The notes: generated from the letters alone by a model not told the origin. A DNA stretch of 64,000 bases from an uncultured Desulfobacter sp. (GCF_963665355.1 NZ_OY762229.1:3038001-3102000); one strand, 5' to 3'; positions 21,146 to 52,715 are shown, counted from the first letter of the stretch. Numbers and translations: made by a program.

Positions 21146-23022
21146 TGTGCGGGATTGCCGGATTTACTGGAAGTGGCTCCCATGATGATCTTAAGGCCAT
21201 GACAGCGGCCATGGCCCACCGGGGGCCGGACGCAGAGGCTTTTTTTTATGCCCGGGATTCTTCAGTCTATCTGGGGCATAGACGGCTTTCCATCATTGAT
21301 CTGAGGGATGGGGCCCAGCCCATGTCAACTGCAGACAACAATTTTGTAATTGTCTTCAATGGCGAGATCTACAACCATGCAGCGCTTCGCAAAGAGTTGG
21401 AAAACAGAGGTCACCGGTTTATTTCCCATCATTCTGACACGGAAGTCCTTCTACACGGTTACAGTGAGTGGGGCAGGCTTCTTCCGGAAAAGCTGAACGG
21501 GATGTGGGCGTTTGCCCTTTATGACAAAAAAGCAAAACAGATTTTTATCAGCAGAGACAGGTTTGGGAAAAAGCCGCTGTATTTCACCTTGCAGAACAAG
21601 ACTTTTGCATTTGCGTCTGAACTGTCTGCCTTGACAATCCATTCCCGGGTAAATGCCAGCATATCCCCTGCCATGCTTAAAAAGTATTTTGCCTATGGAT
21701 ATATCCCCGCCCCGGGATCTATTTATGAAAGGATATACAAGCTTGCCGGCGGTTGTTCCCTAATCTATGATTTAGATTCAGAAACCTATGAGGTTAAAAA
21801 ATACTGGGACTTTAAGATAGAACCCTTTGACCGGATTCCTTCCAACCCCATTGAGGAATGGGGCGAGCAGCTAAGAGAGTTGATTTCCAGGGCGGTTAAG
21901 CGAAGGCTTATTTCAGATGTCCCGCTTGGGGTCTTTTTAAGCGGAGGGATAGATTCTTCATGTGTTACAGCCTATGCAGCCAAGGCCATGGATGCACCTT
22001 CTGCTTTGAAAACCTTTTCCATCAGCTTTGAAGAGAAAAGTTTTGACGAGTCGGAATTCTCTAATAAAGCGGCCCGGTTTGTTGGTACAGATCACTATAA
22101 TGAGGTTCTTTCAATGGAGCGGTCCATGAGCCTTCTACCGGATATCGCCGGTAAACTGGATGAGCCCATGGGAGACAGCTCCATTTTACCCACCTATCTG
22201 CTGAGCCGGATAACCAGAAAGCATGTCACTGTTGCCCTGGGCGGAGATGGTGCTGATGAGCTCTTTGCCGGTTATGATCCGTTTCGGGCGTTGAAATACG
22301 CAAAGCTTTATAATTCGGTAATCCCAAGACCTGTTCATATGGGAATCTGCATGCTTTGCAGCCGGCTACCGGTATCCCATCGTAATATGAGCCTTGATTT
22401 CAAGATTAAACGGACCTTAAGAGGGCTAAGCTACGATAAAAAGCTGTGGAACCCGGTCTGGCTGGGTCCGTTGTCACCGGATGAGATTTCAGAGCTGTTT
22501 CATGAACCGGTTGATATAGAGGAGCTTTACTCAGAAGCAATCAACCTGTGGGATCAGTGTCAAAGCACCAGCCTGATTGATCAGACCCTTCAGTTTTATA
22601 CTCGGTTGTACCTCCAGGATGATATCTTAACTAAAGTTGACCGGGCCTCCATGATGAACTCCCTTGAAGTCAGGGCTCCGTTCCTTGATATTGAACTGGT
22701 TGATTTCGTAAGAAAAATCCCATGCACATTTAAATTCAGAAACGGCCAGACAAAGTATATTCTTAAAAAAGCCCTGGAACCTGTATTGCCCAGGGAAATT
22801 CTGTACCGTTCCAAAAAAGGGTTCGGCATACCGGTGGGAAGGTGGCTGAAGCAACCTTTTTTTAAACACAAATCAGTCCGGTATCAAAATATCCTGTCTG
22901 CCGATTTTATCCAGAAGCATATGCAGGAACACATTTCAGATAAGAATGACAACCGCGCCTTTTTATGGAACCATTGGCTTCTATCCGAATGGTCTCAAGG
23001 TAAGGGTTTCAGCCTTTCATAA
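21145..23022 (+). CDS. asparagine synthase-like glutamine amidotransferase
   Basis: Class II glutaminase plus ATP-pyrophosphatase, normally converting Asp to Asn; in polysaccharide loci relatives amidate uronic acids or other carboxyls. The 625-residue protein has the nucleophile Cys2 (MCGIAGF), HRGPDAEAF, the NGEIYNH glutaminase motif, and the synthetase PP-loop SGGIDSS (about residue 270) with GGDGADELFAGYD further on. The start is fixed by the need for Cys2. It is the first of three AsnB-like proteins in the window. Its neighbours, a polyprenyl glycosyltransferase and a GT4, point to glycan modification rather than asparagine supply. Calling it asnB would overstate what is known. Confidence 0.85.
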   Translation: MCGIAGFTGSGSHDDLKAMTAAMAHRGPDAEAFFYARDSSVYLGHRRLSIIDLRDGAQPMSTADNNFVIVFNGEIYNHAALRKELENRGHRFISHHSDTEVLLHGYSEWGRLLPEKLNGMWAFALYDKKAKQIFISRDRFGKKPLYFTLQNKTFAFASELSALTIHSRVNASISPAMLKKYFAYGYIPAPGSIYERIYKLAGGCSLIYDLDSETYEVKKYWDFKIEPFDRIPSNPIEEWGEQLRELISRAVKRRLISDVPLGVFLSGGIDSSCVTAYAAKAMDAPSALKTFSISFEEKSFDESEFSNKAARFVGTDHYNEVLSMERSMSLLPDIAGKLDEPMGDSSILPTYLLSRITRKHVTVALGGDGADELFAGYDPFRALKYAKLYNSVIPRPVHMGICMLCSRLPVSHRNMSLDFKIKRTLRGLSYDKKLWNPVWLGPLSPDEISELFHEPVDIEELYSEAINLWDQCQSTSLIDQTLQFYTRLYLQDDILTKVDRASMMNSLEVRAPFLDIELVDFVRKIPCTFKFRNGQTKYILKKALEPVLPREILYRSKKGFGIPVGRWLKQPFFKHKSVRYQNILSADFIQKHMQEHISDKNDNRAFLWNHWLLSEWSQGKGFSLS

Positions 23023-24406: not shown

Positions 24407-25084
24407 ATGAAAACAGGAATATTAATCCAGGCAAGGCTTTCATCATCAAGGTTTCCTGGCAAAATGCTGGCACTGTTGAACGGAATTCCCTTAATCCAAT
24501 TTGTATTTAATAGATGCAAAGTTTCGAAACATGCAGGAATCGTAGCCGTTATAACTTCCGATCAGTCAAGCGACGATCCTTTGTATGAATGTTGCAGAAA
24601 CAATAATATTCCTGTTTTTCGAGGTGGCTTAGATAATGTTCTCGACAGATATGTTAAGGCCGCGAAGTTTTTTGGTTGCGATGTTGTTTGCAGGGTGTGT
24701 GGTGATTCTCCTTTTGTTGATATATGCTGTATAGATCAAATGTTTAAGTGCCTTAAAAAGAATGATGAATATTTTTCGGTTTCCGGGGGATTAAATGGAT
24801 TTATTTCAGAAATAGTTACTTATCAAACTTTAGCAAAGGTCAATTGTCTTGCATCCTCTTCCGAAGATCGTGAGCACGTTACAAAATATATCAGAGATAA
24901 TTTAAATCAATTTCGACACAGAATGTTCGATATAGGGTCGGTCCCGGAAGCGCTACAAAGAATTACCCTAACCGTAGATTACGAAAAAGATATGGATTTG
25001 GCCAATTTGATAGTGAAAAACGGACTCTCAGGGTTTGATTTTCAATCACAGGATGTTATAAAAATTCTGCATCGTATTTTATAA
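24407..25084 (+). CDS. SpsF-like cytidylyltransferase-family protein
   Basis: SpsF of Bacillus and its relatives are cytidylyltransferase-fold proteins that sit with NeuB-type synthases and are thought to activate nonulosonate-type sugars with CTP. The 225-residue protein begins with the nucleotide loop ILIQARLSSSRFPGKML, has the lid-type VITSDQSSDDPL and FRGGLDNVLDRYVKAAK, and contains RVCGDSPFVD, the metal-binding strand diagnostic of this branch. It opens the 24-35 kb module that also contains relatives of SpsC, SpsD, SpsE and SpsG. The exact nucleotide product is unproven. Confidence 0.82.
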   Translation: MKTGILIQARLSSSRFPGKMLALLNGIPLIQFVFNRCKVSKHAGIVAVITSDQSSDDPLYECCRNNNIPVFRGGLDNVLDRYVKAAKFFGCDVVCRVCGDSPFVDICCIDQMFKCLKKNDEYFSVSGGLNGFISEIVTYQTLAKVNCLASSSEDREHVTKYIRDNLNQFRHRMFDIGSVPEALQRITLTVDYEKDMDLANLIVKNGLSGFDFQSQDVIKILHRIL

Positions 25085-25193
25085 GAAGTCTGCCATCCAT
25101 CAGTGACTGGCATGCACTTTTGTAGCCTGGTCATGGCCTAAGAACAAATAGGCCCTTGGCTGTTATCCAATAAGACAATGATAGAGAAAGGTA

Positions 25194-26066
25194 ATGAATT
25201 TAACCATACCTGATTTTCCAGCGCGAATAGAAATTGAAATTGCCAGTGATTGTAATTTGAGGTGTACCTATTGCCCAAGACATTTTGTTAATACTCTTAA
25301 AGGGTACATTGATTTTCATTTATTTGAGAAAATTATCAAAGAAGCAATAAGTTATCCGGATACTATTCTTGTCTTGCATAGAAGGGGGGAGAGTATGCTT
25401 CATCCGGAATTCAAAAAAATGCTCGAGCTCGTTTCCGGCAGGTTTAAGGAAGTCCAAATGGCTACTAATGCCACCCTTCTTAATAAAGATAAATATGAGG
25501 CTATAGTTAACGGGTTGACGTTTCTGTCCTTTAGTCTGGATACCCCAGAAAATTTTGATCAAACCAGAATTCCGGCAAAATATTCAAAAGTTGAATCAAA
25601 AATTTTGGATTTTTTGGATTATAACAAAGGGAGGGTATTAACACAGGCTTCAATGGTAAAAACTGTGAAAACAGCTGAAGAAGAGTGTGCTAAATTCAAA
25701 AGCGTATGGACAGATCGCGTTGATCGGGTAAGAATATATGATCAGCATTCTTCTGATGGAAACTTCGGATCTTTAAAAAATCCAAGGGTAATTCGTAAAC
25801 CCTGTGTTATGCCTTTTTATGAAATACTGGTATATGACAGTGGCAACGTTGCCAGGTGCAACCACGACTGGAATAGTGATAATTCTGCCAGTATGGGCGA
25901 TTTAAAAAAGAACGGAATTAAAGAAATATGGCATGGGGAAAAATATGAAGAGCTGAGAAAGCAGCAGAGAACACTGCAATTTGATGATTCCGTTTGTACA
26001 AGATGTGATTGCTGGTATCCGGAGATTGGGAGACAGGGGACTGGAGAAACTTGGGAGAAATCATGA
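25194..26066 (+). CDS. radical SAM/SPASM domain protein
   Basis: The 290-residue protein has CNLRCTYC (about residues 20-27) binding the radical SAM [4Fe-4S] cluster. A later cysteine-rich region includes RCNHDW and CTRCDCW, typical of the SPASM domain that holds auxiliary clusters. The intervening ATNATLLN matches the SAM-binding strand. Such enzymes carry out hard carbon chemistry such as epimerisation, dehydrogenation or deamination. A weak ribosome site (AAAGG) precedes the ATG, and the stop overlaps the aminotransferase start by four bases, so they probably act on the same sugar. The C-terminal tail is encoded by a G-rich, repetitive stretch (26029-26060). The substrate is unknown. Confidence 0.82.
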   Translation: MNLTIPDFPARIEIEIASDCNLRCTYCPRHFVNTLKGYIDFHLFEKIIKEAISYPDTILVLHRRGESMLHPEFKKMLELVSGRFKEVQMATNATLLNKDKYEAIVNGLTFLSFSLDTPENFDQTRIPAKYSKVESKILDFLDYNKGRVLTQASMVKTVKTAEEECAKFKSVWTDRVDRVRIYDQHSSDGNFGSLKNPRVIRKPCVMPFYEILVYDSGNVARCNHDWNSDNSASMGDLKKNGIKEIWHGEKYEELRKQQRTLQFDDSVCTRCDCWYPEIGRQGTGETWEKS

Positions 26067-27208
26067 GAAAAACTTTTTTACCTCTATCAAGGCCTGACAT
26101 CAGTGACATTGAAATTCAGAAAACCGTCGAGGTCATAAAGTCAGGTTGGTGGACAACCGGACCGGTTGTTACTGAATTTGAAGAAAAATTTTCTGAGTAT
26201 CTACAAGACAAAGAGCCTCTGGCTGCCGTCGGATTAAATTCGTGCACTGCAGCGCTTCACTTGGCTCTTTTAGCTTTGGGAATTGGTAAGGGGGATGAAG
26301 TAATTCTGCCGACCTGGACGTTTGTCAGCACCGGACACGTGGTGGAGTGGACAGGGGCAAAACCTGTTTTATGTGATATTGATGAAAGAACTTTGAATAT
26401 AGATATTGAAAGGGCATCAGAACTGATAACGCCTAGAACAAAGGCGATAATGCCTGTTCATATTGCAGGGTTTCCCTGTGACATGGATGCTGTTTTATCC
26501 CTTGCAGAAAGGCATAATCTTAAAGTAATTGAAGATGCCGCTCATGCCATAGGAACTGAATATAATGGAATAAAAATCGGTAATTTTGCAGATGTAACCT
26601 GCTTTAGTTTTTATGCCACTAAAAATCTTGCTATGGGTGAGGGTGGAGCCGCTGTTGCGAAAAACAGTGATATTATTGAAAAGATACGAAAGCTGGGGTA
26701 TTTCGGGATTAATAAACAGGCCTTTAAAAGGTATTCCCAAACAGGAAGCTGGTTTTATGATATAGAGGAGTCCGGGTACAAAAATAACCTTGACAGCCTC
26801 CACGCAGCTTTGGGATTAGCCCAGCTCCAACGTCTGGATCAGATGAATTTTCGTAGACGACAGATTGCCTCTCTTTACAGAAAAGGTTTATCTAACAAAC
26901 TGCTCTTACCATGGGATGATGGGAACCATTATCACACATATCACCTTTTTCCGATCAGGGTTGATGATGAAGATATTGACCGTAATGAATTGATTGAGGC
27001 GCTGAAAAGAAGAAATATCGGTACAAGCGTGCATTTTATCCCGTTACATCTACATACACATTATATGCAAAACAATGAACAGGACAACTTCCCTGTTGCC
27101 AACAGGGTATTTAAAAGGATTTTATCTATTCCCATGTTTTCATCAATGAGTGATGAGGACGTAGCTTATGTGGTAGAAAATTTGAATGAGCTGCTACAGA
27201 GAGGTTAA
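26063..27208 (+). CDS. DegT/DnrJ/EryC1/StrS (SpsC-like) sugar aminotransferase
   Basis: A PLP enzyme that aminates a keto nucleotide-sugar. The 381-residue protein has LPLSRPDISDIE, GLNSCTAALHLAL, DAAHAIGTEYNG, and the PLP lysine in FYATKNLAMGEGG, so it is an aminotransferase rather than a dehydrase of the RfbH kind. GGGAGA lies before the ATG at 26063; an earlier in-frame start at 26009 would lie within the radical SAM gene. In a Sps or legionaminic-type pathway this enzyme would act on a 4-keto sugar at C4, but the matching 4,6-dehydratase is not next to it. Confidence 0.9.
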   Translation: MRKTFLPLSRPDISDIEIQKTVEVIKSGWWTTGPVVTEFEEKFSEYLQDKEPLAAVGLNSCTAALHLALLALGIGKGDEVILPTWTFVSTGHVVEWTGAKPVLCDIDERTLNIDIERASELITPRTKAIMPVHIAGFPCDMDAVLSLAERHNLKVIEDAAHAIGTEYNGIKIGNFADVTCFSFYATKNLAMGEGGAAVAKNSDIIEKIRKLGYFGINKQAFKRYSQTGSWFYDIEESGYKNNLDSLHAALGLAQLQRLDQMNFRRRQIASLYRKGLSNKLLLPWDDGNHYHTYHLFPIRVDDEDIDRNELIEALKRRNIGTSVHFIPLHLHTHYMQNNEQDNFPVANRVFKRILSIPMFSSMSDEDVAYVVENLNELLQRG

Positions 27209-27233
27209 AGATAACAACATCATAGGTTAAGGC

Positions 27234-28541
27234 ATGGAATTTATAGAGAAATTATTATTCAATAAAAAAGTTTCTGTCTGGGGTGGTGGATATCTGGGGT
27301 ATTCTTATATCATCCGGTTGCAGAAAGCTGGGTTTATGGTTAACTGGTTCGACTTCGGGGGAAATCCAATAATAGGAATCTTAGATGGTTCTTTCCCAAG
27401 TAAAGTTCAAAAAGAATCCTGGTCATCAAGCGGTGACTTACCGCAAATTGATATTGATAGAGTGAAGATCTGCAAAGACGCCTGTGAGATGTTTGATTCC
27501 GTCCTTCATATTATTTCTTTCCCTGCCCTGGAAAACAGACAGCAGAACCGATTGATTCAAATGAGGCAGATTATTATGGAGAATTTGGAGAGGCTGGATT
27601 CACCATTATTTCTTTTTCAATCGGCTGAAGTTCCGCGGACAATTGAGAACAGCTTCATTAAAGCAATTGAAAAAGAGAAGTGCGACTGTTATTACGCTTC
27701 TGCATTCAGAAGCGATTGGACCATTGAAGAGTTTTTAACAAATTCAAGTGTTCAGATAGTTTCAGGTTATAATCCTGCTTCAATTGAAAAGGCAAAATAT
27801 TTTTTTGGGCTTATGGGAATGAACTGTGAAATCCTTTCATCCATTGAAGAGGCGGAAATTTACGAAAATGCCAGGAAAGCAGCTCATTTTATTCTGTCTG
27901 CCTTTTTAAATCAGATGTCATTGTCATATCCTGCCATTGATATTCGAAAGATGACTCAGCTTTTGATTAAAAATATAGGGGAACAGAAAGACTTATTGAA
28001 CATTGGAGCGCTTCAGTATAAAATTGCCAGTTCCATTGATCATCTTGTTGCAGGAATAAAAGCTGAAAATCATCTTTCGATTCTTAAGGATGCAGAAGCC
28101 GGAAATATTTCAATATTGTTCAAATATGCCGATTTGATCAAGAAAAAAGGAGCAAAAACGGTTTGTATATTCGGTATTTCAGCAAAAAATACTTATAAAG
28201 ATATACGCTTTTCCCCTTCGGTTATCCTATCGGAGTATCTTCATAAATCCGGTATGGAAGTATTTATTGATGATCCCTGTTATGATGAGGGCGAACTCAT
28301 TTCAGTTTTACCTTTTGCACAGTATTTTAATATTAATACCGACAAAATGGTTTCAGATGCGCTTTTCATATTCAGGGATCATGGGGATTATAGATTTTTG
28401 TCCCAAAAGGATATTGAGGAAAAGGGAATCAGCAATACAAAGGTTGTAATTGACGACGTCGGACTTTTTAAGGATTTTAAATTTTCTGAAAAGACGTTAT
28501 ACCACATTCCCGGTGACGGCAATCTGATCAAATTACAGTAG
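27234..28541 (+). CDS. degenerate nucleotide-sugar dehydrogenase-like protein
   Basis: The fold resembles UDP-glucose or UDP-ManNAc dehydrogenases. There is an N-terminal Rossmann segment with KVSVWGGGYLGYSYI (about residues 12-26), a helical middle with EIYENARKAAHFILSAFLNQM, and a C-terminal domain with the segment GISAKNTYKDIRFSPSVILSE, matching the family's conserved DIR-SP strand. The central catalytic block, in the family a Gly-rich loop with Cys followed by Pro-x-Asp, is not recognisable: that region reads NIGEQKDLLNIGALQYK, without cysteine. It may therefore be non-oxidative, a binding subunit, or a mechanistically different enzyme. The 435 residues match full family length. Confidence 0.62.
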   Translation: MEFIEKLLFNKKVSVWGGGYLGYSYIIRLQKAGFMVNWFDFGGNPIIGILDGSFPSKVQKESWSSSGDLPQIDIDRVKICKDACEMFDSVLHIISFPALENRQQNRLIQMRQIIMENLERLDSPLFLFQSAEVPRTIENSFIKAIEKEKCDCYYASAFRSDWTIEEFLTNSSVQIVSGYNPASIEKAKYFFGLMGMNCEILSSIEEAEIYENARKAAHFILSAFLNQMSLSYPAIDIRKMTQLLIKNIGEQKDLLNIGALQYKIASSIDHLVAGIKAENHLSILKDAEAGNISILFKYADLIKKKGAKTVCIFGISAKNTYKDIRFSPSVILSEYLHKSGMEVFIDDPCYDEGELISVLPFAQYFNINTDKMVSDALFIFRDHGDYRFLSQKDIEEKGISNTKVVIDDVGLFKDFKFSEKTLYHIPGDGNLIKLQ

Positions 28542-28553
28542 AGATTTTAACAT

Positions 28554-30230
28554 ATGTGTGGAATCGCCGGATTTATTTCACAAAATTTAAACTACGATAA
28601 AGAGTCCATCGTTTCAGGAATGCTCAAAAAACTGGAACACAGGGGGCCAGACCAAAAAGGCGTGGGCGTGTTTGGAGGTGTTGCGCTTGGAATGGTAAGG
28701 CTGAGCATTATTGATACTGAATATCATGAGATTCCATACATAAGCAGTGATAATGAGCATGCGATAGTATATAATGGGGAAATCTACAATCATGAAGGGA
28801 TCAGGGCGTCTTTACGCTCACAATACGATTTTAAAACCGGGTCTGATGGAGAGACCGCTCTTGCAAATTATATCTGCAGGGGGGAAAAGGCGCTGGGAGA
28901 TTTTAACGGCATGTATGCTTTTGCCGTATATTCCAAAAGAGATCATCAGACAATAATTGTCAGAGATAAGATCGGCGAAAAGCCTTTGTACTATACCAGA
29001 GGGAAGGATTTTTTTGCCTTTGCCAGTGAAATAAAAGCGCTGCTGGATCTGGTCCCGGCCGTTTTCAATGATGCTGCATTATCTTATCGGGCCTATGAGT
29101 TCACGGTGGGAAAAGAGACTTTGTTCAAAGGTATTTATTCTCTTGAACCAGGTGAATACCTGACGATAAAAGATGAAGGCACGGTTACCAGTCATAGCTA
29201 TTGGAAAATCTGGGACAATCTTATTGAAATAGAAGATGATGAAACAAAAATTTTAAATCACCTCTCTGAGCTTCTGGAGGATTGTATTCTCCTGAGAACC
29301 AAGAATTCAGCTCACCAGTATGGTGCATTTGTCAGCGGGGGCGTTGACAGTGCTCTTGTTGCCTGTATTGCAAAACCTGATTTTATCTATACAGCGCATT
29401 ATGATTATGATGATTTTGATGAACTTGACTATGCCAAGCTTGTTGCCAGGTGCATTGACAGGGAGCTGGTCATCGTCCGTCCTGACAAGCAGGACTTTAT
29501 AAACACAAGAGAAAAAATCGCCTGGTACCTTGATTCCCCGTGCACATGGACAAGCTTTACTTTGTGGGAACTTGTTAAAAAGGCTGCAGATGAAAACGTC
29601 AAAGTTATTTTATCCGGTGATGGAGCAGATGAAATATTTGGTGGGTACCATCGATATCACCTGCTGCACCATGATGAGCAAATTCATCGGCTTGAGGCCA
29701 TGCAAAAATATTCATACATGATCAACCGCTACTATGGTAGTCCGGTTGAGCGATATACCAAACTGATTAACAGGTGCGACAATATATATGACGAACAGGT
29801 GAACCAATATCTTCATGACAGCCTGACATATTATTTTGAACGAATCAATGCTGACGTGATCCATTTAATGGGCCTTACGGATTTTTATACAACTATGCAG
29901 GTCCTGCTGCAAATGGCAGATAGAATAAATATGGCCCACCATATTGAAAACAGGTCTCCATTTCTTGATTTCAGGCTTGTTCAGTTTGCTTTTTCTCTGC
30001 CTTCAAAATACAAAATTAAGGACGGAGTTACAAAGTGGCTGCTGAAAGAAGTCTCAAAAAAGTTTATCCCAAAGGAAATTCCTGAACGGATTGATAAAAG
30101 GGGTTTCTCAGCGCCGGTTAACAAGTGGTTCAGCTGGGAAAAACAAGGGAAGTACAATAGAAAGGCATATCGGGACATGGTGTTTGGAGACTGGAAAAAA
30201 GTATTTAATGTTCAGGGTTGCTCGGTATAA
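28554..30230 (+). CDS. asparagine synthase-like glutamine amidotransferase (second copy)
   Basis: A 558-residue class II amidotransferase with Cys2 (MCGIAGF), EHRGPDQKG, VYNGEIYNHEG, the PP-loop SGGVDSALV (about residue 263) and SGDGADEIFGGYH. It differs clearly from the 21145 copy and is about 70 residues shorter. It sits between the degenerate dehydrogenase and the NeuB-type synthase, 12 bases and two bases from them, so it should act in the same pathway. It may amidate a carboxyl on the sugar or an attached amino acid. Cellular asparagine synthesis is a less likely role in this context. Confidence 0.85.
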   Translation: MCGIAGFISQNLNYDKESIVSGMLKKLEHRGPDQKGVGVFGGVALGMVRLSIIDTEYHEIPYISSDNEHAIVYNGEIYNHEGIRASLRSQYDFKTGSDGETALANYICRGEKALGDFNGMYAFAVYSKRDHQTIIVRDKIGEKPLYYTRGKDFFAFASEIKALLDLVPAVFNDAALSYRAYEFTVGKETLFKGIYSLEPGEYLTIKDEGTVTSHSYWKIWDNLIEIEDDETKILNHLSELLEDCILLRTKNSAHQYGAFVSGGVDSALVACIAKPDFIYTAHYDYDDFDELDYAKLVARCIDRELVIVRPDKQDFINTREKIAWYLDSPCTWTSFTLWELVKKAADENVKVILSGDGADEIFGGYHRYHLLHHDEQIHRLEAMQKYSYMINRYYGSPVERYTKLINRCDNIYDEQVNQYLHDSLTYYFERINADVIHLMGLTDFYTTMQVLLQMADRINMAHHIENRSPFLDFRLVQFAFSLPSKYKIKDGVTKWLLKEVSKKFIPKEIPERIDKRGFSAPVNKWFSWEKQGKYNRKAYRDMVFGDWKKVFNVQGCSV

Positions 30231-30232
30231 AA

Positions 30233-31294
30233 ATGGGTGTTTATATAATAGCTGAGATAGGAATTAACCATAACAACAGCCTGGAAAATTGTTTCAAACT
30301 AATTGATTCTGCATCAAAAGCAGGTTGTGATGCTGTAAAATTTCAACTTTTTTCAGCAAAATGGTTATACCCTGAAAATGCAGGGAAACTGGACTGGAAA
30401 GATGGTAATGCCACATATAGTTACGACATCTATAAAGCGGTAGAAAAATTTGAACTTCCTTTTGGCTGGATTGACAAGCTTATTGTTTATTGTAAGGAAA
30501 AACGGATTGATTTTATTTCTTCTGTTTTTGATCTGTCCGGTCTTGATTTTCTGATCCAAAAGCAGGTTCATGCAATTAAGTTATCTTCTTATACGATTAC
30601 AAATCTGCCTCTGATTAAATCTGTCGCTAAATCCGGGTTGCAGACATTCCAGAGTACAGGGGGGGCAACACTTGGAGAGACTGAAGAGGCGGTTAACACG
30701 TTTCTTTCATATAATGATAATTTGACTTTGTTGCATTGTTCCATCCAGTATCCAACCCTTCTCTCCAACTGCAACATTGGAGTGATCAAAACGCTTCAAA
30801 CCGCTTTTCCTATGTTGGACGTAGGGTATTCGGATCATACCATTGAAATTTCGCAGGCTCCTGTCCAATCCGTTTACCTTGGGTCGAGTGTCATTGAAAA
30901 GCATATTACCCTTGATAAAAACATGAAAGGGCCTGATCATTTTTTTGCTTTAGAACCTGATGAATTGGCTAAAATGGTGAAGGATATCAGAGCTGCCGAA
31001 AAAGATTATTTGTCAGGTCACTATGAAATCGACTACGAGATTTTTGGAAGTAGTGCCAGAAAATGTTATGAACATGAGAAATATTTGCGTAATTTTTGCT
31101 TTATGACGTTATTTTCCCAAAAAAGGATTGAAAAAGGCGGGCAGATCAAGCTTCAGGATATAAAAATTTTAAGACCGGGGAAAAAAGAACGTGGCTTGGA
31201 ACCAAAGTATTTGAGTCTTTTTAATTCCTATAAGATATTTGCAAAAACCAATATAGAAATTGATGATCCGATAACTTGGGAATCCATATTGTGA
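30233..31294 (+). CDS. NeuB/SpsE-family nonulosonic acid synthase
   Basis: Condenses phosphoenolpyruvate with a hexose-type amino sugar to make a nine-carbon keto acid such as neuraminic, legionaminic or pseudaminic acid. The 353-residue protein has the TIM barrel opening IIAEIGINHNNS, DAVKFQLF, the catalytic-site strand VGYSDHTIEI, and EKHITLDKNMKGPDHFFALEP, which ends the barrel. A C-terminal SAF (antifreeze-like) domain follows (about 285-345). ATG at 30233 is preferred, two bases after the AsnB-like stop; TTG at 30218 is an alternative inside it. Which nonulosonate is made cannot be told. Confidence 0.88.
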   Translation: MGVYIIAEIGINHNNSLENCFKLIDSASKAGCDAVKFQLFSAKWLYPENAGKLDWKDGNATYSYDIYKAVEKFELPFGWIDKLIVYCKEKRIDFISSVFDLSGLDFLIQKQVHAIKLSSYTITNLPLIKSVAKSGLQTFQSTGGATLGETEEAVNTFLSYNDNLTLLHCSIQYPTLLSNCNIGVIKTLQTAFPMLDVGYSDHTIEISQAPVQSVYLGSSVIEKHITLDKNMKGPDHFFALEPDELAKMVKDIRAAEKDYLSGHYEIDYEIFGSSARKCYEHEKYLRNFCFMTLFSQKRIEKGGQIKLQDIKILRPGKKERGLEPKYLSLFNSYKIFAKTNIEIDDPITWESIL

Positions 31295-32295
31295 CAAGCG
31301 CTAAAAAAATACTGTTCCGCGCGGATGCCAAGCCGGAAATAGGAATTGGAGACCTTATGAGCCTGATTCAGCTCTCAAAGTATTTTGAGGAGGACGGATG
31401 GCAGGCTTTTTTTATGATAAGGGCTTATGAGGCTGGAATTCGGCTCATTGAAAAGTATGAGATCAAACAGGTTCGTATCATAGAATCAAACATAACAATC
31501 CCAGAAGAAGTCAATGAAATCAATACATACATTTTAACAAAATCAATTGATGTTGTTTTTTTTGAAATTACGGAAAATAAAATTAGTGACTACCTGGGGC
31601 TTCTATCAGATGTTTCTAAGGCCTGTGTTTCCTTTGACGGGAAAATTCTTCCAGACATGAAGCTGGTTGTGGATTGGGATGTCGCTGCACATGATTATTT
31701 CAGTCCGGATAAATATCCGGAAACTAAATTTTTGTTGGGCCCTGAATATGTGATTCTTCCCTATAATTTTGACCTGAAGCGGGTGGCGGCCAGGAGAATT
31801 CACCATCCTCCTAAAAGAATGCTCATAGCCATGGGCGGAGCAGATGAGTTTGATTTTACCAGTCAGGTTATACAAGAATTGGTTAATCAGAAGATTCAGA
31901 TAGCGGTTACCGTTGTTATTGGCTCGGGATATAAATATAGAGCAGATCTTGATGCTCAATTGGAGGAAAGCAAGTTGAGATATGAACTAAAAGAGAATAT
32001 TTCAAATATGTTTGAGGAATATATGAGATGCGATCTTGCCATAGGCGCCGGAGGACTAACTGCCTCTGAGCTTGTGGCAACAGGCACTCCTGCGTATCTG
32101 ATAGCCATATACGAACACCAGGAAGCGAGATGTAAATATTTTGATGAAAATGGGTGGGCTACATATTTGGGCGATTTTAAAACCTGGAAAACAAATCTGC
32201 CCATCCGTTTTGACGGTATAGTAAAACGTATTCCGGTTAACTTTTTTAAATATAGATCAATTATCAATATTTGTAATGAATTCACAACAAAATAA
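31291..32295 (+). CDS. SpsG/PseG-like GT-B-fold protein lacking the catalytic histidine
   Basis: PseG removes UDP from the altrose precursor of pseudaminic acid; SpsG is its Bacillus relative. The 335-residue protein keeps the two-domain GT-B layout: an N-terminal RADAKPEIGIGD loop and a C-terminal nucleotide region IGAGGLTASELVATGTPAYL. Where PseG has Gly-x-Gly-His followed by an Arg, this protein has GIGDLMSLIQLS: the catalytic His is Asp and the Arg is missing. Hydrolase activity is thus doubtful. GTG at 31291 forms a GTGA overlap with the NeuB-type gene and is preferred over TTG at 31276. Confidence 0.7.
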   Translation: MTSAKKILFRADAKPEIGIGDLMSLIQLSKYFEEDGWQAFFMIRAYEAGIRLIEKYEIKQVRIIESNITIPEEVNEINTYILTKSIDVVFFEITENKISDYLGLLSDVSKACVSFDGKILPDMKLVVDWDVAAHDYFSPDKYPETKFLLGPEYVILPYNFDLKRVAARRIHHPPKRMLIAMGGADEFDFTSQVIQELVNQKIQIAVTVVIGSGYKYRADLDAQLEESKLRYELKENISNMFEEYMRCDLAIGAGGLTASELVATGTPAYLIAIYEHQEARCKYFDENGWATYLGDFKTWKTNLPIRFDGIVKRIPVNFFKYRSIINICNEFTTK

Positions 32296-33046
32296 AGACA
32301 TCATCAGTGAAAATGGTGACACAAAATATCATTTTACTTATTTAGAGTGGGATTCAAATTATTTCCAAAAGCCTTCCTATTATTTGAACACAGACCTGTC
32401 TCGTTTTGGTCATGGAGACGATAGCCGAGCTATTGAAAATATCCGGTCTAAGCTGAACAATTGTTTTGTTACTGCTAAAATAAACACATCCTCTGATTAT
32501 CGAATCGTAAACGAGCTGCAAAGAGCCGGATTTTATTACGTAGATACTGAAGTGACGTTGAAGTATCTGAAAGACGATTCTCAAGATAACCTTAAGACAG
32601 CAGAAGATGATATTAAAATATTTAAAGTGGATAAAAATTGTCATCTGCCGTATGAGGAAATTGGAAGTGTTTTTACACAAACGAGATTTCATACGGATTT
32701 AAATATTTCAACAAAAAAATCCAATGAATTATGGATTTTATATCTGAAAAATTTTATTCCTGGAAGAGAGAAGCATATGTATGCCGCAACAGTTGGAGAT
32801 GTTGTGGTAGGTGTTATTCTCGTAAACATAAAAAATATTGAGGCCTTTCTTTTTTTTGTCGCCATTAAACCTGAATACCAAGGCAAGGGCGTTGGAAGCA
32901 GTTTGATACAGCATGTTATAGCTCAGTTGTTTGGGTTTAGTATCTCGACAGGCACACAGGTAAAAAATATTTCAGCACTCAATTATTACATTAAGAACGG
33001 TTTTTCAAAAATAATTTCAACTAAAACAATTTTGCATCACTGGTGA
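32276..33046 (+). CDS. GNAT-family N-acyltransferase (SpsD/WecD-like)
   Basis: Transfers an acyl group from coenzyme A, most likely to a sugar amine. The 256-residue protein has a degenerate N-terminal half and a C-terminal GNAT core with FFVAIKPEYQGKGVGSSLI, the acetyl-CoA phosphate-binding loop, then NISALNYYIKNGFSK, the Tyr-containing beta-bulge segment. The two-part layout is like WecD (dTDP-fucosamine acetyltransferase) and Bacillus SpsD. It overlaps the PseG-like gene by 20 bases, supporting N-acylation of the amine placed by the DegT aminotransferase. Confidence 0.78.
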   Translation: MNSQQNKDIISENGDTKYHFTYLEWDSNYFQKPSYYLNTDLSRFGHGDDSRAIENIRSKLNNCFVTAKINTSSDYRIVNELQRAGFYYVDTEVTLKYLKDDSQDNLKTAEDDIKIFKVDKNCHLPYEEIGSVFTQTRFHTDLNISTKKSNELWILYLKNFIPGREKHMYAATVGDVVVGVILVNIKNIEAFLFFVAIKPEYQGKGVGSSLIQHVIAQLFGFSISTGTQVKNISALNYYIKNGFSKIISTKTILHHW

Positions 33047-33070
33047 TCAGAATTCTAAGAGTAGAGTTAT

Positions 33071-33697
33071 ATGTTTAAGTTTATAGGATTTATTTCAAAA
33101 AAAAGATATTGGAAGTTTCATAGTCTCATAATCAAATCCATTCTCCTGTTCTACGGGATAAAAATAGGAAGAAATTTTTACATAGAGGGTACACCCCATT
33201 TAAAAATAAACGGTAGTTATCACAATATAATTATAGGGGATAATGTTTCTATTTTAGGCGATGTTGATCTCAGGAATAGGGAAAATGGCAGAATTTATTT
33301 TCATAACAATGTAACTATAGAAAAAGAGTGCCGATTTGTGTCCGCAAGAGAAGGGCTTATAGAAATTGGCGAGGGTTCCATTGTAACGGCCTTCTGTATA
33401 TTGAACGGAGGGAGTGATATTATTATCGGCCGAAATTGCATAATAGGCCCAAGAAGTAGCATAAATGCAAATGAACATAAATTTGCAAGACACATTCCAG
33501 TAAGAAAGCAGGGCTTTATCCATGCGCCTGTCAGAATAGAGGATGATTGCTGGCTGGCAACAAATGTCGTAATCAATAAAGGTGTTTGTTTGCGTAAAGG
33601 CTCCATTATCGCTTCAAATTCGGTTGTTACAAAAGATACTGAGGAATATTCCATTAATGGCGGCATTCCGGCGAAGAAAATAGGAGAAAGAATATAA
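33071..33697 (+). CDS. left-handed beta-helix (hexapeptide) acyltransferase
   Basis: A 208-residue protein of the LbetaH family that uses acyl-CoA for O- or N-acylation of sugars. Hexapeptide coils run from about residue 55 to 190, for example the repeated patterns IIIGDNVSI, IEIGEGSIV and IIIGRNCIIG. The SINANEHKF segment supplies the probable catalytic His, and the C-terminal NGGIPAKKIGER is the usual cap. It is directly followed by the sugar amidotransferase start with no gap. The acyl group and position are unknown; together with the GNAT it gives this sugar two acylation options. Confidence 0.85.
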   Translation: MFKFIGFISKKRYWKFHSLIIKSILLFYGIKIGRNFYIEGTPHLKINGSYHNIIIGDNVSILGDVDLRNRENGRIYFHNNVTIEKECRFVSAREGLIEIGEGSIVTAFCILNGGSDIIIGRNCIIGPRSSINANEHKFARHIPVRKQGFIHAPVRIEDDCWLATNVVINKGVCLRKGSIIASNSVVTKDTEEYSINGGIPAKKIGERI

Positions 33698-34828
33698 ATG
33701 ATATACTGTTCAAAATGCTTGATGCCTGATACCAAACCTTATATCTCTTTTAATGAGTATGGTGTGTGTGCCGCTTGCCAGGCAAGCAGGCGCAAAGTAG
33801 ATATAGTTAATGGGATAGATTGGGATAAAAGGGCAAATGAATTTGATAAGATAGTTTTGCATGCAAGATCAAAGCAGGCTCCTTTCTATGATGTCCTAGT
33901 TCCGGTAAGTGGTGGAAAAGATTCTATTACCCAGGTCCATAGATTGTTGAAATATCATCTTAGGATTCTTGCTGTTAATGTTGATTATGGAATTAAAACC
34001 GATATAGGAAAATACAATCTTGAGTGTATTCCTCGAAATATGGGTGTGAATCTGCAAATTTACAGGCCTAATCTGGCTTTGCATAAGAAATTGATACGCA
34101 TCGGGTTTGAAGAATATGGAGATCCAGATCTTTTAAGTCACACTATGCTTCATGGTTATCCGCTACGGGTGGCTTTGGCCTATCAAATTCCCCTTGTTGT
34201 TCTTGGTGAAAATTCTGCATTTGAGTATGGGGGAGAACAGAGTATATCAAAGCTGAATTCAATAAATAGAGAATGGTTTTTGAAATATGCGGCAAACTCA
34301 GGAAAAGATGCAGCATATGTTTCTAAAAAGTATGATATCCCCATGAATGATCTTGTCATGTATGACTTCCCTGATGAATTGGAAAATTCAGGTACGAAAA
34401 CAGTTTTTTCAAGTTTTTATTTTTTTTGGGACTCTGAAAAGCATTTACAAATAGCAAAAAAATACGGCTTTCAGGAATTGGATAGTCCTCGAGAGGGGAC
34501 ATATCGAACCTATGTGGGGATTGATGAGAAAATCAATCGCATTCATCAATATTTTAAAGTCCTCAAATTTGGATATGGCAGGGCAACCGACCACGCCTGT
34601 GAGGATATCCGAAATGGAAAAATTTCTCGGGATGAGGCAAAAAAATTAGTGAAACAATATGATCTGGATCCAGTATCTGATGAGTATGTAAATGATTTTT
34701 GTAATTTTATTGACATCAGTGTGGACAGGTTTTTAGAAGTTCAAGATTCCTTTCGTAATCTATCCATTTGGGAACAAAATAGTTGGGGCGACTGGTATAT
34801 CCCTGGCCACCTGGAAGACGACATATGA
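33698..34828 (+). CDS. N-acetyl sugar amidotransferase (PseA/WbpG family)
   Basis: Members use ATP and ammonia to change a sugar N-acetyl group into an acetamidino group, as in pseudaminic derivatives of Campylobacter flagellin and Pseudomonas O-antigen. The 376-residue protein has two zinc-type cysteine pairs at the N-terminus (CSKC, about residues 4-7, and CAAC, about 26-29), the PP-loop PVSGGKDSITQ (about 70-80) and the conserved GENSAFEYGG segment. In Pseudomonas the ammonia comes from HisH/HisF-like partners; none are encoded here, so free ammonia or a neighbouring AsnB-like glutaminase might serve. The latter idea is inference. Confidence 0.88.
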   Translation: MIYCSKCLMPDTKPYISFNEYGVCAACQASRRKVDIVNGIDWDKRANEFDKIVLHARSKQAPFYDVLVPVSGGKDSITQVHRLLKYHLRILAVNVDYGIKTDIGKYNLECIPRNMGVNLQIYRPNLALHKKLIRIGFEEYGDPDLLSHTMLHGYPLRVALAYQIPLVVLGENSAFEYGGEQSISKLNSINREWFLKYAANSGKDAAYVSKKYDIPMNDLVMYDFPDELENSGTKTVFSSFYFFWDSEKHLQIAKKYGFQELDSPREGTYRTYVGIDEKINRIHQYFKVLKFGYGRATDHACEDIRNGKISRDEAKKLVKQYDLDPVSDEYVNDFCNFIDISVDRFLEVQDSFRNLSIWEQNSWGDWYIPGHLEDDI

Positions 34829-35151
34829 AAATTACTTTAAATGATAACCCTCGGCTTTTTGGCATAGGAGAAATACAGATTAAAGACTTTGGAACAATTT
34901 TTTTTGAACCATGTGATATGATTTCAATACATACTAACCCTGGGAAGTATTGTGATATCACGGCCACCGATTGGGGCTTTTATCTCGGCTCTTCTGTAAA
35001 CGGGCGTATGAAAGAGAATGGCTTTAGAGTAGCTCTCGTCATAAATAGCCAAGAGAAATTATTTGTTAACGCTGTAGATGAGGGTAAATTAACTGAGTTT
35101 CATGATTATTTAAAAAAGCAGAATAGTCGTGTCCTGCAATGGCTTGATTAA
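34825..35151 (+). CDS. small conserved-type protein coupled to the sugar amidotransferase
   Basis: I do not recognise a named family. The 108-residue product starts MKITLNDNPRLFGIGEIQIKD at the ATGA overlap with the amidotransferase stop, and an earlier in-frame ATG at 34783 lies within that gene. It is acidic, has no signal peptide or membrane segment, and contains ATDWGFYLGSSVNGRM and SRVLQWLD. I recall similar short proteins beside PseA-like genes in other glycan loci, but I cannot name them. A helper or regulator of the amidotransferase is the natural guess. It closes the 24-35 kb module. Confidence 0.65.
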   Translation: MKITLNDNPRLFGIGEIQIKDFGTIFFEPCDMISIHTNPGKYCDITATDWGFYLGSSVNGRMKENGFRVALVINSQEKLFVNAVDEGKLTEFHDYLKKQNSRVLQWLD

Positions 35152-35359
35152 GCATTTTAACCTAAATATTGCAATGGATATCGTGAAACATATATAAAAA
35201 CAGAAAGTTATGAGAATTTTGACTCACCATAATTTTTTGTTTTTTATACACAATCTCAAGATGTTAGCTCTTCGGTTGCAACATTTAAGTTTAAAGCAGT
35301 GCTGAAACAATGTCACGTTCTGATTTTAGCAATTGAAAAATGAGAGTGCAAATGAGTTC

Positions 35360-35498
35360 GAGACCTTTGCACGGGTCGGTCAATGCCAAATAACATTCGG
35401 AGAGTCTATTTAAAAACAGAATATTATAAAGAATTTCTCTTTGTTTCAAATCAAATATGCGGAAATTTTTCGCCGAATTGAACTCGTGCAAAGGTCTC
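35360..35498. mobile_element. MITE-like non-autonomous element with 14-bp terminal inverted repeats
   Basis: The ends read GAGACCTTTGCACG (35360-35373) and CGTGCAAAGGTCTC (35485-35498), perfect inverted repeats. They are flanked by the direct repeat AGTTC at 35355-35359 and 35499-35503, the expected 5-bp target duplication. The 139-bp interior has no coding capacity, so it must be moved by a transposase encoded elsewhere. It sits between the small protein gene and the third AsnB-like gene, 62 bases before the latter's start. The transposase family is not assigned. Confidence 0.82.
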
Positions 35499-35560
35499 AG
35501 TTCGTGAATAAAGGAGTTTCTTTGCTGTTTATTTATAAAAAGTTTTAGGTGGATATCTAT

Positions 35561-37480
35561 ATGTGTGGAATAACCGGCTTTTTTCATTTTAACAACGGAT
35601 ACTTTACAGCTTCGTCTGTGTTACAGAAAATGACACATCGATTGGCTCATCGTGGCCCTGATGATAATGGTTGCGTTGTCTTCAACCGGTCTTCTAATAA
35701 GCATAGCTTATTTAGCGATTGTGGATGTGAAGCGATAGAGCAATCAGGACATGTCGGATTAGGCCATAGGCGTTTAAGTATCTTGGACTTAAGTGCTTTA
35801 GGGCATCAACCTATGTCTGCGGATAGCGAGAATGTGTGGATAGCTTTTAATGGTGAGATTTACAATTTTCTTGAATTAAAGGAAGAATTAAAAAGCCGAG
35901 GGCACTCGTTTAAAACTAATTCAGATACAGAGGTAGTTTTGGCCTCCTACTTGGAATGGGGAACTGAATGCTTCAAACGATTTAACGGCATGTGGGGATT
36001 GTCAATTTATGATAGACGAGTTGATCAAATTATCCTTTCGAGGGATCGATTTGGTAAAAAACCGCTTCATTATTATTACGACGAAACCGTGTTAATTTTT
36101 GCCTCTGAAATTAAATCTCTTTTTTTGCATCCGTCTGTTCCCAAAAAAATGAATATGGCAAAGATTATTGACTATGCAGGCAGGCATTATCGATACGTTG
36201 ATATAGATAATGATACATATTTTCTGAATATTCATCAGGTTCCCAAAAGCTCTTTTATGGTGTTTAATATCAAAGGGCTTAATGAGGTTTGTGCTTACTG
36301 GAATTTAAGTATCCCTAAATCTTTTGATATCCTGACTGATAGCGAAATGATAGAGGAGTTTCGCTACTTGTTTCATGACGCAGTCAAAATTCGCCTGCGT
36401 AGTGATGTTCCTGTTGGTTGCATGCTAAGTGGCGGATTGGACTCCGGGTCTATTACTTGTCTTGCAGCGCAAGAGAATAAAAAAATACATACCTTTTCCG
36501 GTGTGACAGGAGATGGATATTTTGATGAATCTGAGTACATAAATGAAATAGTAAAGCATGAGGAGGTTCAGCACATATACATCTACCAAAATCATTCCAA
36601 TCTTTATGCTATTTTAAAAGAAATGCTTCAGTTTCATGATGAACCGGTATGTACAGTGACATGGCTATGCAACTATATCCTATCTAAAGAAGTTGCGAAA
36701 AATAAAATTCCTGTAATTTTAACAGGCCACGGTGGAGACGAATTGTTAGCTGGTTATTGGGATCATTACCACTATGCCTTTGCGGATTTAAGAGGTACTA
36801 GGGAAGGTGACAATTTAGAACTCAAGGCATGGTTAGACAATCATAAGCGTGGCCTTGATGAGTATACTGCCGCAAAAAAATATATTAACAGTTTAAAAAT
36901 AGAGACAAATTTGGAATTAGAAAAGTATTCACCATATTTGAACTGCCTTCAAAAAAATGTCTTAAAATTCAGCAAATGTGGTAACATAAATGGTATTGAT
37001 ACACAAAAAGAAAATCAAAATCTTTTACGCAGGCTTTATATGGAATTGTTTTTTGAGACTATCCCTCCTAGTTTGCGGGCTGAAGATAGGAATATGATGG
37101 CATTCGCAATTGAAAATAGATTGCCCCTTCTTGATTACCGTCTTGTTGAGTTTTGTTTCAAACTTAGCAATTCGGCTAAAATTCGGAACGGGCTTGGCAA
37201 ATGGCTGCTTCGAGAGAGTATGAAAGGTATTTTGCCGGAAAAAGTTCGATTGAGAAAAGATAAAACTGGCTTTAACGCTCCGTTTGGGGACTGGATTAGA
37301 AACGAGCTACGTCAAATGATGCAGCAAATGATATCAAAAAAGTCTTTTATGAATACTGAAATATATGATCAAAAGAATGTTCAAAAAAAATTCGAAGAGC
37401 ATTTATCCGGTTCAAATTATTATATGTTTTTTTGGCAATATCTTAATCTAAATATTTGGCATGAATTATTTTTTGAATAA
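35561..37480 (+). CDS. asparagine synthase-like glutamine amidotransferase (third copy)
   Basis: A 639-residue class II amidotransferase: Cys2 (MCGITGF), AHRGPDDNG, FNGEIYNFLE, RDRFGKKPLHYY, the PP-loop SGGLDSGSI (about residue 286) and TGHGGDELLAGYWDH. Cys2 fixes the start at 35561, and AGGTGGA lies eight bases upstream; an in-frame ATG at 35549 would bury the nucleophile. Just before it is the MITE-like element, so its promoter region may have been altered. Context again points to glycan amidation rather than asparagine biosynthesis. Confidence 0.85.
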   Translation: MCGITGFFHFNNGYFTASSVLQKMTHRLAHRGPDDNGCVVFNRSSNKHSLFSDCGCEAIEQSGHVGLGHRRLSILDLSALGHQPMSADSENVWIAFNGEIYNFLELKEELKSRGHSFKTNSDTEVVLASYLEWGTECFKRFNGMWGLSIYDRRVDQIILSRDRFGKKPLHYYYDETVLIFASEIKSLFLHPSVPKKMNMAKIIDYAGRHYRYVDIDNDTYFLNIHQVPKSSFMVFNIKGLNEVCAYWNLSIPKSFDILTDSEMIEEFRYLFHDAVKIRLRSDVPVGCMLSGGLDSGSITCLAAQENKKIHTFSGVTGDGYFDESEYINEIVKHEEVQHIYIYQNHSNLYAILKEMLQFHDEPVCTVTWLCNYILSKEVAKNKIPVILTGHGGDELLAGYWDHYHYAFADLRGTREGDNLELKAWLDNHKRGLDEYTAAKKYINSLKIETNLELEKYSPYLNCLQKNVLKFSKCGNINGIDTQKENQNLLRRLYMELFFETIPPSLRAEDRNMMAFAIENRLPLLDYRLVEFCFKLSNSAKIRNGLGKWLLRESMKGILPEKVRLRKDKTGFNAPFGDWIRNELRQMMQQMISKKSFMNTEIYDQKNVQKKFEEHLSGSNYYMFFWQYLNLNIWHELFFE

Positions 37481-38836: not shown

Positions 38837-38900
38837 TACTTTTTTTTATTCTTTAAAACACCATGTAATTAAACACTAAACAATGTTGGAAAGGACAACC

Positions 38901-39914: not shown

Positions 39915-39981
39915 AATAGGCAATGAAGAAGGAATCTTCAGTTTTTATGGATAAAAAATTTTACAGAGACGTTTTGAATCA

Positions 39982-41775: not shown

Positions 41776-41914
41776 ACATGTGAAAAACAATTGCTTTGAT
41801 CAGTGATCTGAGTGAACAAATGATTGCCCTTTTTATTTTCTGCTATATTTGAAATTGAAATCTTATTTGGTATTTCAGCATGCTAAATAAGTTTTTTTAT
41901 CACCGACCGGGATA

Positions 41915-43447: not shown

Positions 43448-43454
43448 TTCTGTA

Positions 43455-45014: not shown

Positions 45015-45017
45015 TTA

Positions 45018-46796: not shown

Positions 46797-46799
46797 ATC

Positions 46800-47780: not shown

Positions 47781-47885
47781 GCCAAGGTTAATCTTTTCTT
47801 AAAATTTTATTGCACCATATTCTGCTTTAACGGCACAAAGTAAGAAAAATATTAATGACGATATTATCACATGGAGGATAAGAAA

Positions 47886-48656: not shown

Positions 48657-48698
48657 ATTAAGGATAATATACCATAAATAAAATAATTTTTTGTTAAA

Positions 48699-52635: not shown

Positions 52636-52715
52636 CAACAGATGCCTGAATCAAGGTGTTGCTTAAACAAAATTTTTTAGAGTATTCAGTTGTCCTGAGT
52701 AAAAGGTTTAAAACA

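Follow-up and report, generated by a model that had tools for sequence, protein, structure and literature searches.

Which sugar is made where the enzymes of a nonulosonate pathway stand in one run with a radical S-adenosylmethionine (SAM) enzyme, a dehydrogenase homologue that lacks its catalytic cysteine and several amidotransferases? This question is raised by positions 24407-35151 of a 64,000-nucleotide stretch from an uncultured Desulfobacter sp. (NZ_OY762229.1:3038001-3102000), the whole of which is referred to as the window in the following. An initial annotation had read this block as a nonulosonate module with additional enzymes, and gene-by-gene re-reading recovered eleven genes there, all on the plus strand and in a single run, with every gene family that had been named present at its coordinates. 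The extent of the block was thus borne out, but not its end at 35151, as a second AsnB gene at 35561-37480 belongs to the set and accompanies it in seven of the 22 loci described below. Together these twelve genes form a conserved and mobile module of the nonulosonate type, an observation stronger than first stated. As judged from the sequences, the module is very probably dedicated to a cytidine monophosphate (CMP)-activated nonulosonate, and it is likewise probable, with less assurance, that it represents a distinct variant of the Sps/legionaminic acid (Leg)/pseudaminic acid (Pse) pathway type with added radical and amidation steps, which is the reading preferred here. That the initial annotation knew of no described pathway with this set agrees with the open literature, where no description of it was found by title and abstract opening among the matches listed, most subscription papers being outside this scope.

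The twelve genes and their recurrence

The run begins with an SpsF-type CMP-sugar cytidylyltransferase (24407-25084; PF02348, CTP_transf_3, 2.1e-27), followed by a radical SAM/SPASM enzyme of the twitch type (25194-26066; PF04055 1.5e-11, PF13186 4.5e-11), an SpsC-type DegT aminotransferase (26063-27208; PF01041 2.4e-125), a homologue of nucleoside diphosphate (NDP)-sugar dehydrogenases that keeps the NAD motif and lacks the catalytic Cys and Lys (g04; 27234-28541) and a glutamine-dependent amidotransferase, AsnB I (28554-30230; AsnB 4.4e-60; TIGR01536 380 bits, cut-off 267). Next come an SpsE/NeuB-type nonulosonate synthase forming its own subfamily (30233-31294; PF03102 6.1e-71), an SpsG/PseG-type nucleotide-sugar hydrolase (31291-32295; TIGR03590 1.9e-34, 119.6 bits, cut-off 153.55), an SpsD-type, WecD-like GNAT N-acyltransferase (32276-33046; PF00583 8.1e-13; NF008212 3.1e-15, below cut-off) and a hexapeptide acyltransferase (33071-33697; PF00132 4.2e-12). 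A PseA/WbuX-type sugar amidotransferase (33698-34828; TIGR03573 297 bits, cut-off 203), a 108-residue protein without match in Pfam or NCBIfam (g11; 34825-35151) and AsnB II (35561-37480, plus strand; TIGR01536 423 bits) complete the set, for which functions at the family level are well supported by these matches. Start codons were refined to ATG at 26063 for SpsC, GTG at 31291 for SpsG and ATG at 34825 for g11, and of the several four-base overlaps between start and stop that had been noticed, three were found (26063/26066, where SpsC starts within the end of the radical SAM gene; 31291/31294, with the GTG start; and 34825/34828, where g11 overlaps the PseA stop), next to one overlap of 20 bases (32276/32295). 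A further AsnB homologue is located upstream of the block (21145-23022; TIGR01536 494 bits).

When 84,980 species genomes were scanned for a 95-residue piece of AsnB I, 22 loci emerged, a number that is a lower bound since the scan depended on two eight-residue patterns; L086 and L089 denote one contig and L087 overlaps L104, each of these pairs being counted once. According to the genome names, from which nine phyla were taken, the loci belong to Omnitrophota (5), Campylobacterota (3), Nitrospinota (3), Desulfobacterales (2), Nitrospirae bins (2) and Magnetominusculus (2), with one each from Gammaproteobacteria, UBP17, Cloacimonadota, Phycisphaerales and one further bacterium. Gene presence was determined per locus by tblastn, whereby adjacent matches to one gene were merged by coordinate and an opposite-strand NeuB match of 30% in L099 was left out of the NeuB count. 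A four-gene core comprising the radical SAM enzyme, SpsC, g04 and AsnB I was found in 16 of the 22 loci and in eight of the nine named phyla, the phylum without it being represented by the Phycisphaerales locus, in which only g04 (22%) and AsnB were detected. The module is hence recurrent beyond chance, and the expectation by which the initial annotation could have been refuted, i.e., that the genes prove unlinked in relatives, did not come true, with several loci being partial. The radical SAM gene occurs in 17 loci and is directly adjoined by SpsC in all of them (SpsC coming first in L097 and L099), which poses the enzymological question what a radical SAM enzyme does beside an aminotransferase of the nucleotide-sugar type; a second such question comes from g04, whose dehydrogenase fold has been remodelled at the catalytic positions and which lies directly upstream of AsnB I in 19 of the 20 loci where the upstream side of AsnB is visible. 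The junctions between core genes are mostly overlapping or nearly touching.

All twelve genes are present in L090 (Omnitrophota), L093 (Sulfurimonas) and L095 (Gammaproteobacteria), and eleven of them in L092, L094 and L100. The three complete loci share the order SpsF, radical SAM, SpsC, g04, AsnB, hexapeptide transferase, PseA, g11, AsnB II, NeuB, SpsG and GNAT, with two extra genes inserted in L093, whereas in the window the part from NeuB to GNAT precedes the part from the hexapeptide transferase to AsnB II. Relatives of the block's SpsF were identified in nine loci at 43-54% and additionally in L107 at 31%, SpsG accompanies the module in 13, and g11 directly follows PseA in seven. AsnB II matches at 44-48% in six loci and at 35% in L105; it stands directly after g11 in five of them and one gene further in L100, and L094 has g11 without AsnB II. 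Pairwise divergences of nine genes correlate (r 0.63-0.95; 35 of 36 pairs testable), the respective r being reached by 0 to 50 of 2000 shuffles; rows with an internal stop and those of L099 (NeuB), L107 (SpsF), L102 (SpsC) and L103 (AsnB) were dropped.

Several of these observations weigh against a single dedicated pathway. The divergence correlations carry no control for the organism tree, and several loci hold only a part of the set, as L109 is without g04, L102 without the radical SAM enzyme and L110 without both the radical SAM enzyme and SpsC. A NeuB of the block's type (at least 50% identity) was found in eleven of the 21 AsnB-carrying genomes searched, which favours a nonulosonate pathway, yet in the fetched stretch of only ten of the 22 loci, some stretches ending early. 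The other ten genomes have only generic NeuB (at most 40%), except for a 115-residue piece at 49% in one of them (G686), and part of the core may as a consequence serve another sugar there. For g11, moreover, the structure model was too poor for a structure search, with a predicted local distance difference test (pLDDT) value of 59.9. Alternatively, two modules may lie side by side, the genes from SpsF to AsnB I making an unusual amide or amino sugar, and NeuB, SpsG, GNAT and PseA a separate nonulosonate. The five-gene part does occur without NeuB in L089, L096 and L098, the contigs of L089 and L096 ending soon after, and L102, L105 and L106 hold three or four of its genes with neither NeuB nor SpsG in the stretch. 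This division is nevertheless unlikely for two reasons. First, SpsF is located in the former of these parts, and no second match to the block's SpsF (E <= 1e-6) occurs within the stretches of L090, L092-L095 and L100, all of which bear NeuB. Second, the two Magnetominusculus genomes contain most of the set at two separate places, the first five genes in L098 and L096 and most of the remainder in L145 and L146, respectively. There, g11 again directly follows PseA and a NeuB of the same subfamily as that of the block is accompanied by the hexapeptide transferase, PseA, g11 and AsnB II, with SpsG not found in L098 and L145 and GNAT not found in L096 and L146. This co-occurrence without linkage speaks for a single pathway. 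Both second loci have a gene with a methyltransferase domain between g11 and AsnB II, and another such gene precedes NeuB in L093.

The nonulosonate core and the origin of its ketone

The block unites the SpsC, SpsD, SpsE, SpsF and SpsG families, none of its core enzymes reaching the NCBIfam cut-off of a neuraminic acid (Neu), Pse or LegC class (NnaB 271.8 bits, cut-off 399.65; PseI 223.5, cut-off 340.25; PseC 348.6, cut-off 423.5; LegC 225.4, cut-off 420; PseG 119.6, cut-off 153.55). The best NCBIfam matches of SpsF are KdsB models, far below cut-off, and the best solved relative of SpsC is ArnB with 283 bits, the structure 2fn6, which we take to be PseC, scoring 125 bits. Core enzymes falling short of all of these classes fit a product outside them. 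Many bacterial surfaces carry nonulosonic acids, whose classes are predicted from the genes present; the twelve-gene set, found whole in three loci of as many other phyla and by its core in eight, points with these sub-threshold enzymes to a class of surface sugar which such predictions would miss. We infer from the families that SpsC and the GNAT protein would make a 4-acylamino nucleotide sugar, that SpsG would remove the nucleotide, NeuB condense the sugar with phosphoenolpyruvate and SpsF finally yield the CMP sugar. The CMP-legionaminic acid pathway of Bacillus subtilis (SpsM, C, D, G, E, F) draws on the same families to transfer the amino group, N-acylate the sugar, remove the nucleotide, condense the sugar and activate it with CMP, and in the available part of the report it has neither a radical SAM enzyme nor a Cys-less dehydrogenase, AsnB or PseA step and has Leg as its product (PMC7439481).

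The initial annotation stated that no PseB/LegB-type 4,6-dehydratase lies within the block, which proved correct: PseB-model matches in the window (39.6, 32.7 and 22 bits) are confined to genes of the short-chain dehydrogenase/reductase (SDR) type more than 13 kb downstream. As concerns the other loci, tblastn with the source-genome PseB, a PglF-like protein and a third SDR gave nothing above 65 bits in the 22 loci, strong matches being restricted to the wider flanks on the L094 contig (L111) and the L108 contig (L119). The absence from the block stands, and so does the union of a nonulosonate core with the radical SAM enzyme, the Cys-less dehydrogenase, AsnB, PseA and the small protein in one module; the conclusion that the entry sugar is consequently open has been weakened, however, by the B. 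subtilis pathway and by a PseB encoded elsewhere. For B. subtilis, SpsM was described as the first enzyme of Leg synthesis, making the entry ketone, with its gene not among spsC-G in the part of the report available (PMC7439481), just as no dehydratase gene lies in the block.

Given these precedents, the entry ketone may come in trans, since a full PseB (514 bits, over cut-off) is encoded elsewhere in the source genome as well. On the B. subtilis chromosome, spsM lies apart from spsC-G. The alternative to a radical entry step is thus an ordinary Sps/Leg-type pathway with its 4,6-dehydratase (of PglF, SpsM or PseB type) elsewhere in the genome, the radical SAM enzyme acting later in an epimerisation or deoxygenation and the product being legionaminic or a related acid in an epimeric form that bears an amidine. 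At E <= 1e-40 the PseB model finds a match in fifteen of the 21 carrier genomes, exceeding its cut-off in two of these; for L094, L095 and L108 the PseB-type gene is on the contig that carries the module, farther out than the stretch that was fetched. The L094 and L108 contigs also encode PglF-like proteins of 577 and 615 residues, again outside the 22 stretches. With such dehydratases in carrier genomes no new source of the ketone is needed, which counts against the radical SAM enzyme in this role. Against the ordinary pathway speak the tblastn result within the loci, the closer relation of SpsC to ArnB than to 2fn6, and the fact that six of the 21 genomes show no PseB-model match at E <= 1e-40, among them the L090 genome with all twelve genes, an absence that is weak as these are drafts. 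Taken together, the ordinary pathway is a serious possibility that stays short of an even chance, and a bypass by the radical SAM enzyme is possible next to it. The PseB-like gene on the L094 contig was considered as entry dehydratase and dismissed, as it is nearest to FnlA (570 of 730 bits) with WecB next to it and hence part of an N-acetylfucosamine (FucNAc) set.

Could the radical SAM enzyme itself supply the ketone? Its CxxxCxxC motif (C20, C24, C27) and C204, C222, C268 and C271 are invariant in 15 aligned rows, and an HRRGE motif occurs in all 16 module members and in none of 29 wider relatives. The nearest solved structure is BtrN (5.6e-16, 62 bits; next 5.1e-4), which has been described as an enzyme of the twitch type that has a four-Cys auxiliary cluster and converts an aminocyclitol into its keto form by oxidation (PMC9012708). 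By the logic of BtrN and the aminotransferase in butirosin biosynthesis, the enzyme may oxidise a sugar hydroxyl to the ketone that SpsC would then aminate. Both belong to the twitch radical SAM enzymes, have a length of about 270-290 residues and possess four auxiliary Cys (PMC9012708). The butirosin pathway likewise has a DegT-family aminotransferase, 2-deoxy-scyllo-inosose aminotransferase, but the substrate of BtrN is a cyclitol and not a nucleotide sugar, and the similarity is remote. The comparison is further weakened by controls: fifteen of the wider relatives obtained from the phylum score higher with BtrN (7.6e-34, 120 bits), 13 of them with no aminotransferase gene seen beside them, so that likeness to BtrN is a trait of the superfamily. 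As five closer relatives outscore the module enzyme too (5.1e-19, 72 bits), the idea that it is specifically BtrN-like was dropped. What marks the close group is instead the coupling to an aminotransferase, because among the 29 relatives a DegT gene lies within about 1.5 kb in all of the five best and in two of the 24 others. That the radical SAM enzyme supplies the ketone of SpsC is accordingly put forward tentatively, at about the weight given to a dehydratase elsewhere. A wider trio of radical SAM, DegT and AsnB genes exists elsewhere in the phylum, beyond this module (L044 to L047). Radical SAM genes related to another gene of the window (g31; 58148-59701) lie beside the module in four loci (L090:17353-18756, L118:2064-3467, L145:7526-8920 and L146:8843-10228), those of L090, L118 and L145 carrying a B12-binding domain.

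The source genome has a further pseudaminic-acid-like locus (L009; C2:1524001-1544000) with PseB, PseI and FliS over cut-off and no PseG. As the SpsG of the block is the only TIGR03590 match of the source genome at E <= 0.001, the SpsG and SpsC of the block could mainly serve that flagellar locus instead of a pathway of their own. A PseC over cut-off (443.6 bits) is encoded elsewhere in the genome, however, and SpsG stays with the module in the other genomes as described above and diverges along with NeuB (r 0.94), which makes this service highly improbable.

The dehydrogenase homologue and the amidotransferases

In a profile search with g04, the uridine diphosphate (UDP)-N-acetylmannosamine (ManNAc) dehydrogenase Cap5O came first (5.3e-21); the sole Pfam match is UDPG_MGDP_dh_C (4.3e-8), and TIGR03026 gives 67.4 bits, below its cut-off of 189.8. 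The AlphaFold2 model (pLDDT 88.7) matches UDP-sugar dehydrogenases, yet its domain arrangement is uncertain, because the query template-modelling scores of the 50 structures listed lie at 0.37-0.45, except for 0.70 for GDP-mannose dehydrogenase 1mfz. In a full-length alignment of 19 members none of the catalytic residues Cys, Lys and Asp of canonical UDP-sugar dehydrogenases is kept: the Cys column holds K in 14, R in three and Q and F in one each, the Lys column E in 14, V in three and Q and C in one each, and the column of the Asp after the Cys holds S in 13, A in five and G in one. The loss of the cysteine, as initially noticed, was thereby confirmed for the family, and the term degenerate dehydrogenase applies to the catalytic residues, as the fold and the NAD motif were kept. 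In detail, GxGxxG is found in 17 members, 15 have an Asp close to where the second strand ends, and H92, R159, D161, Q227 and Y423 are invariant. As its alignment indicates, g04 is a rebuilt protein under constraint and not a decayed gene; it shares whole-length homology and the NAD glycine motif with Cap5O and WecC and differs from them in all three catalytic residues. A role as uronate-making dehydrogenase was rejected since these residues are replaced. An intact neighbouring dehydrogenase was considered as the source of a uronate: when 32 loci and the window were scanned for a narrow motif, one such gene was returned, in L090, and none in the window, the scan missing the CIGVDP type that occurs in L095, and Pfam identified complete dehydrogenases also in L094 and L100, with four loci being too few to draw a rule.

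It is conceivable that g04 binds NAD and a nucleotide sugar, is unable to complete the oxidation to the uronate and works together with AsnB I, which would form an amide. This partnership, suggested by the tight pairing of both genes, is a conjecture that we would rather bet against. A comparable and equally doubtful option is an active g04 with new chemistry, such as an NAD-dependent epimerase or an oxidase turning the C6 alcohol into the aldehyde, with Lys or Arg in place of Cys. The kept NAD motif, the second-strand Asp, the invariant residues, the exchange of Cys for Lys or Arg in 17 of 19 members and the confident model agree with activity, but the catalytic Lys and the Asp after the Cys are lost in all 19 as well, and a role confined to binding, on behalf of AsnB, would account equally for the pairing.

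The AsnB I copies begin with MCGI in 21 of 23 cases, the other two beginning at a contig end, and carry SGGxDS in 22; in PseA this PP-loop motif is present in 13 of 14 copies. PseA with g11, and perhaps AsnB II, would turn an N-acyl group into an amidine, and whether the product carries an amidine, one of the two modifications (amidated or amidinated) that the initial annotation had considered possible, is to our mind an even bet. HisH and WbuZ/HisF-type proteins are known helpers of amidine formation. In L101 and L108, PseA is preceded by HisH, which exceeds its cut-off of 105 with 226 and 238 bits, and by a protein of the WbuZ/HisF family, which with 227 and 236 bits stays below the WbuZ cut-off of 299.7. 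Both loci are without g11 and AsnB II, a hint that these two may take over the supply of nitrogen in the other loci. A parallel was drawn from Tannerella forsythia, where an AsnB-domain protein was proposed by the authors for the amidine of Pse, the same locus having a UDP-ManNAc dehydrogenase and the glycan containing a mannosaminuronamide together with Pse5Am, according to the portion of the paper available (PMC6120980). Common to the pathway of its Pse5Am7Gra and the module are the NeuB core with an amidotransferase as well as AsnB and a relative of UDP-ManNAc dehydrogenase within one locus, whereas T. forsythia encodes pseBCFHGI there, along with a WecC for whose function knock-out support exists, and in that portion of the text no radical SAM enzyme is named (PMC6120980).

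If the steps considered so far were combined, a nonulosonate route free of a 4,6-dehydratase would result, whereby the twitch radical SAM enzyme makes the ketone for SpsC, C6 stays oxygenated and the product, a 5,7-diamino acid, bears a hydroxyl or an amide at C9 plus an amidine, g04 being the C6 partner of AsnB whose Lys or Arg in the place of Cys holds the C6 group. In this complete form the route is improbable, about as much as the division into two modules. A sugar of this 5,7-diamino class, with hydroxyl or amide at C9, is not known to have been described.

Acquisition of the module and the genes downstream

The G+C content drops from 43.9% in 1-24184 to 37.7% in 24407-37480. Within the order, a search of 389 genomes with g04 (E <= 1e-10) found it in four, the source genome included, and not in the 16 same-genus genomes listed. 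Two of the other three matches are true g04 members (40% and 28% identity), identical with the two Desulfobacterales loci of the 22, and the third keeps the catalytic Cys. Among 297 genomes of the phylum, no second true member was obtained with the g04 query, the other 35 matches being weak (E >= 3.4e-7) and the four of them that were opened all reading GGHCIP; single-sequence g04 scans of genome contigs, viral contigs and plasmids found nothing, where the AsnB piece succeeded. Best matches of SpsF, the radical SAM enzyme, SpsC, NeuB and SpsG come from Campylobacterota or Gammaproteobacteria (54-66%), the copies from the same order reaching 37-59%, and AsnB I is equally close to both. The low G+C content, the absence of g04 from the same genus and the closeness of most genes to those of other phyla point to a recent acquisition of the module by the source genome, horizontal sharing being the best explanation of its distribution.

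Downstream of AsnB II the plus strand continues with a DUF4910/DUF2172/HTH_47 protein of the CA_C2195 family (37529-38836; PF16254 5.5e-80), a sulfotransferase (38883-39914; PF13469 1.2e-25), the 597-residue protein g15 (39982-41775), for which no relative was found in Pfam, NCBIfam or the PDB, and a Wzx-type flippase (41915-43447; PF01943 9.1e-8). Relatives of the DUF4910 protein stand near the module in L095/L115, L104, L105 and L116, those of the sulfotransferase (48%) in L115 and L116, those of g15 in six other genomes (L090/L114, L100, L115, L116, L118 and L146) and those of Wzx in L115, L117 and L118 at 36-52%. By this association g15 is a candidate transferase for the CMP sugar, which once finished would go to an exported surface glycan. 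Since the genes of 37529-46118 (DUF4910, sulfotransferase, g15, Wzx, MBOAT and SGNH) recur in part in L114 to L118 of other phyla, a larger surface-glycan locus seems to travel with the module. In Clostridium acetobutylicum, spsE, spsF and DUF4910 were reported to be linked, as is the case here with DUF4910 downstream, and the printed table of CA_C2195 neighbourhoods, the part of that report considered, lists no radical SAM enzyme or AsnB (PMC4000134). Farther downstream, at 46122-55244, the window holds genes (cyclase-like, 2-hydroxyacid dehydrogenase, SDRs, aminotransferase and methyltransferase) whose relatives follow the module in L117 and, in smaller number, in L115, and which possibly serve a second unusual sugar.

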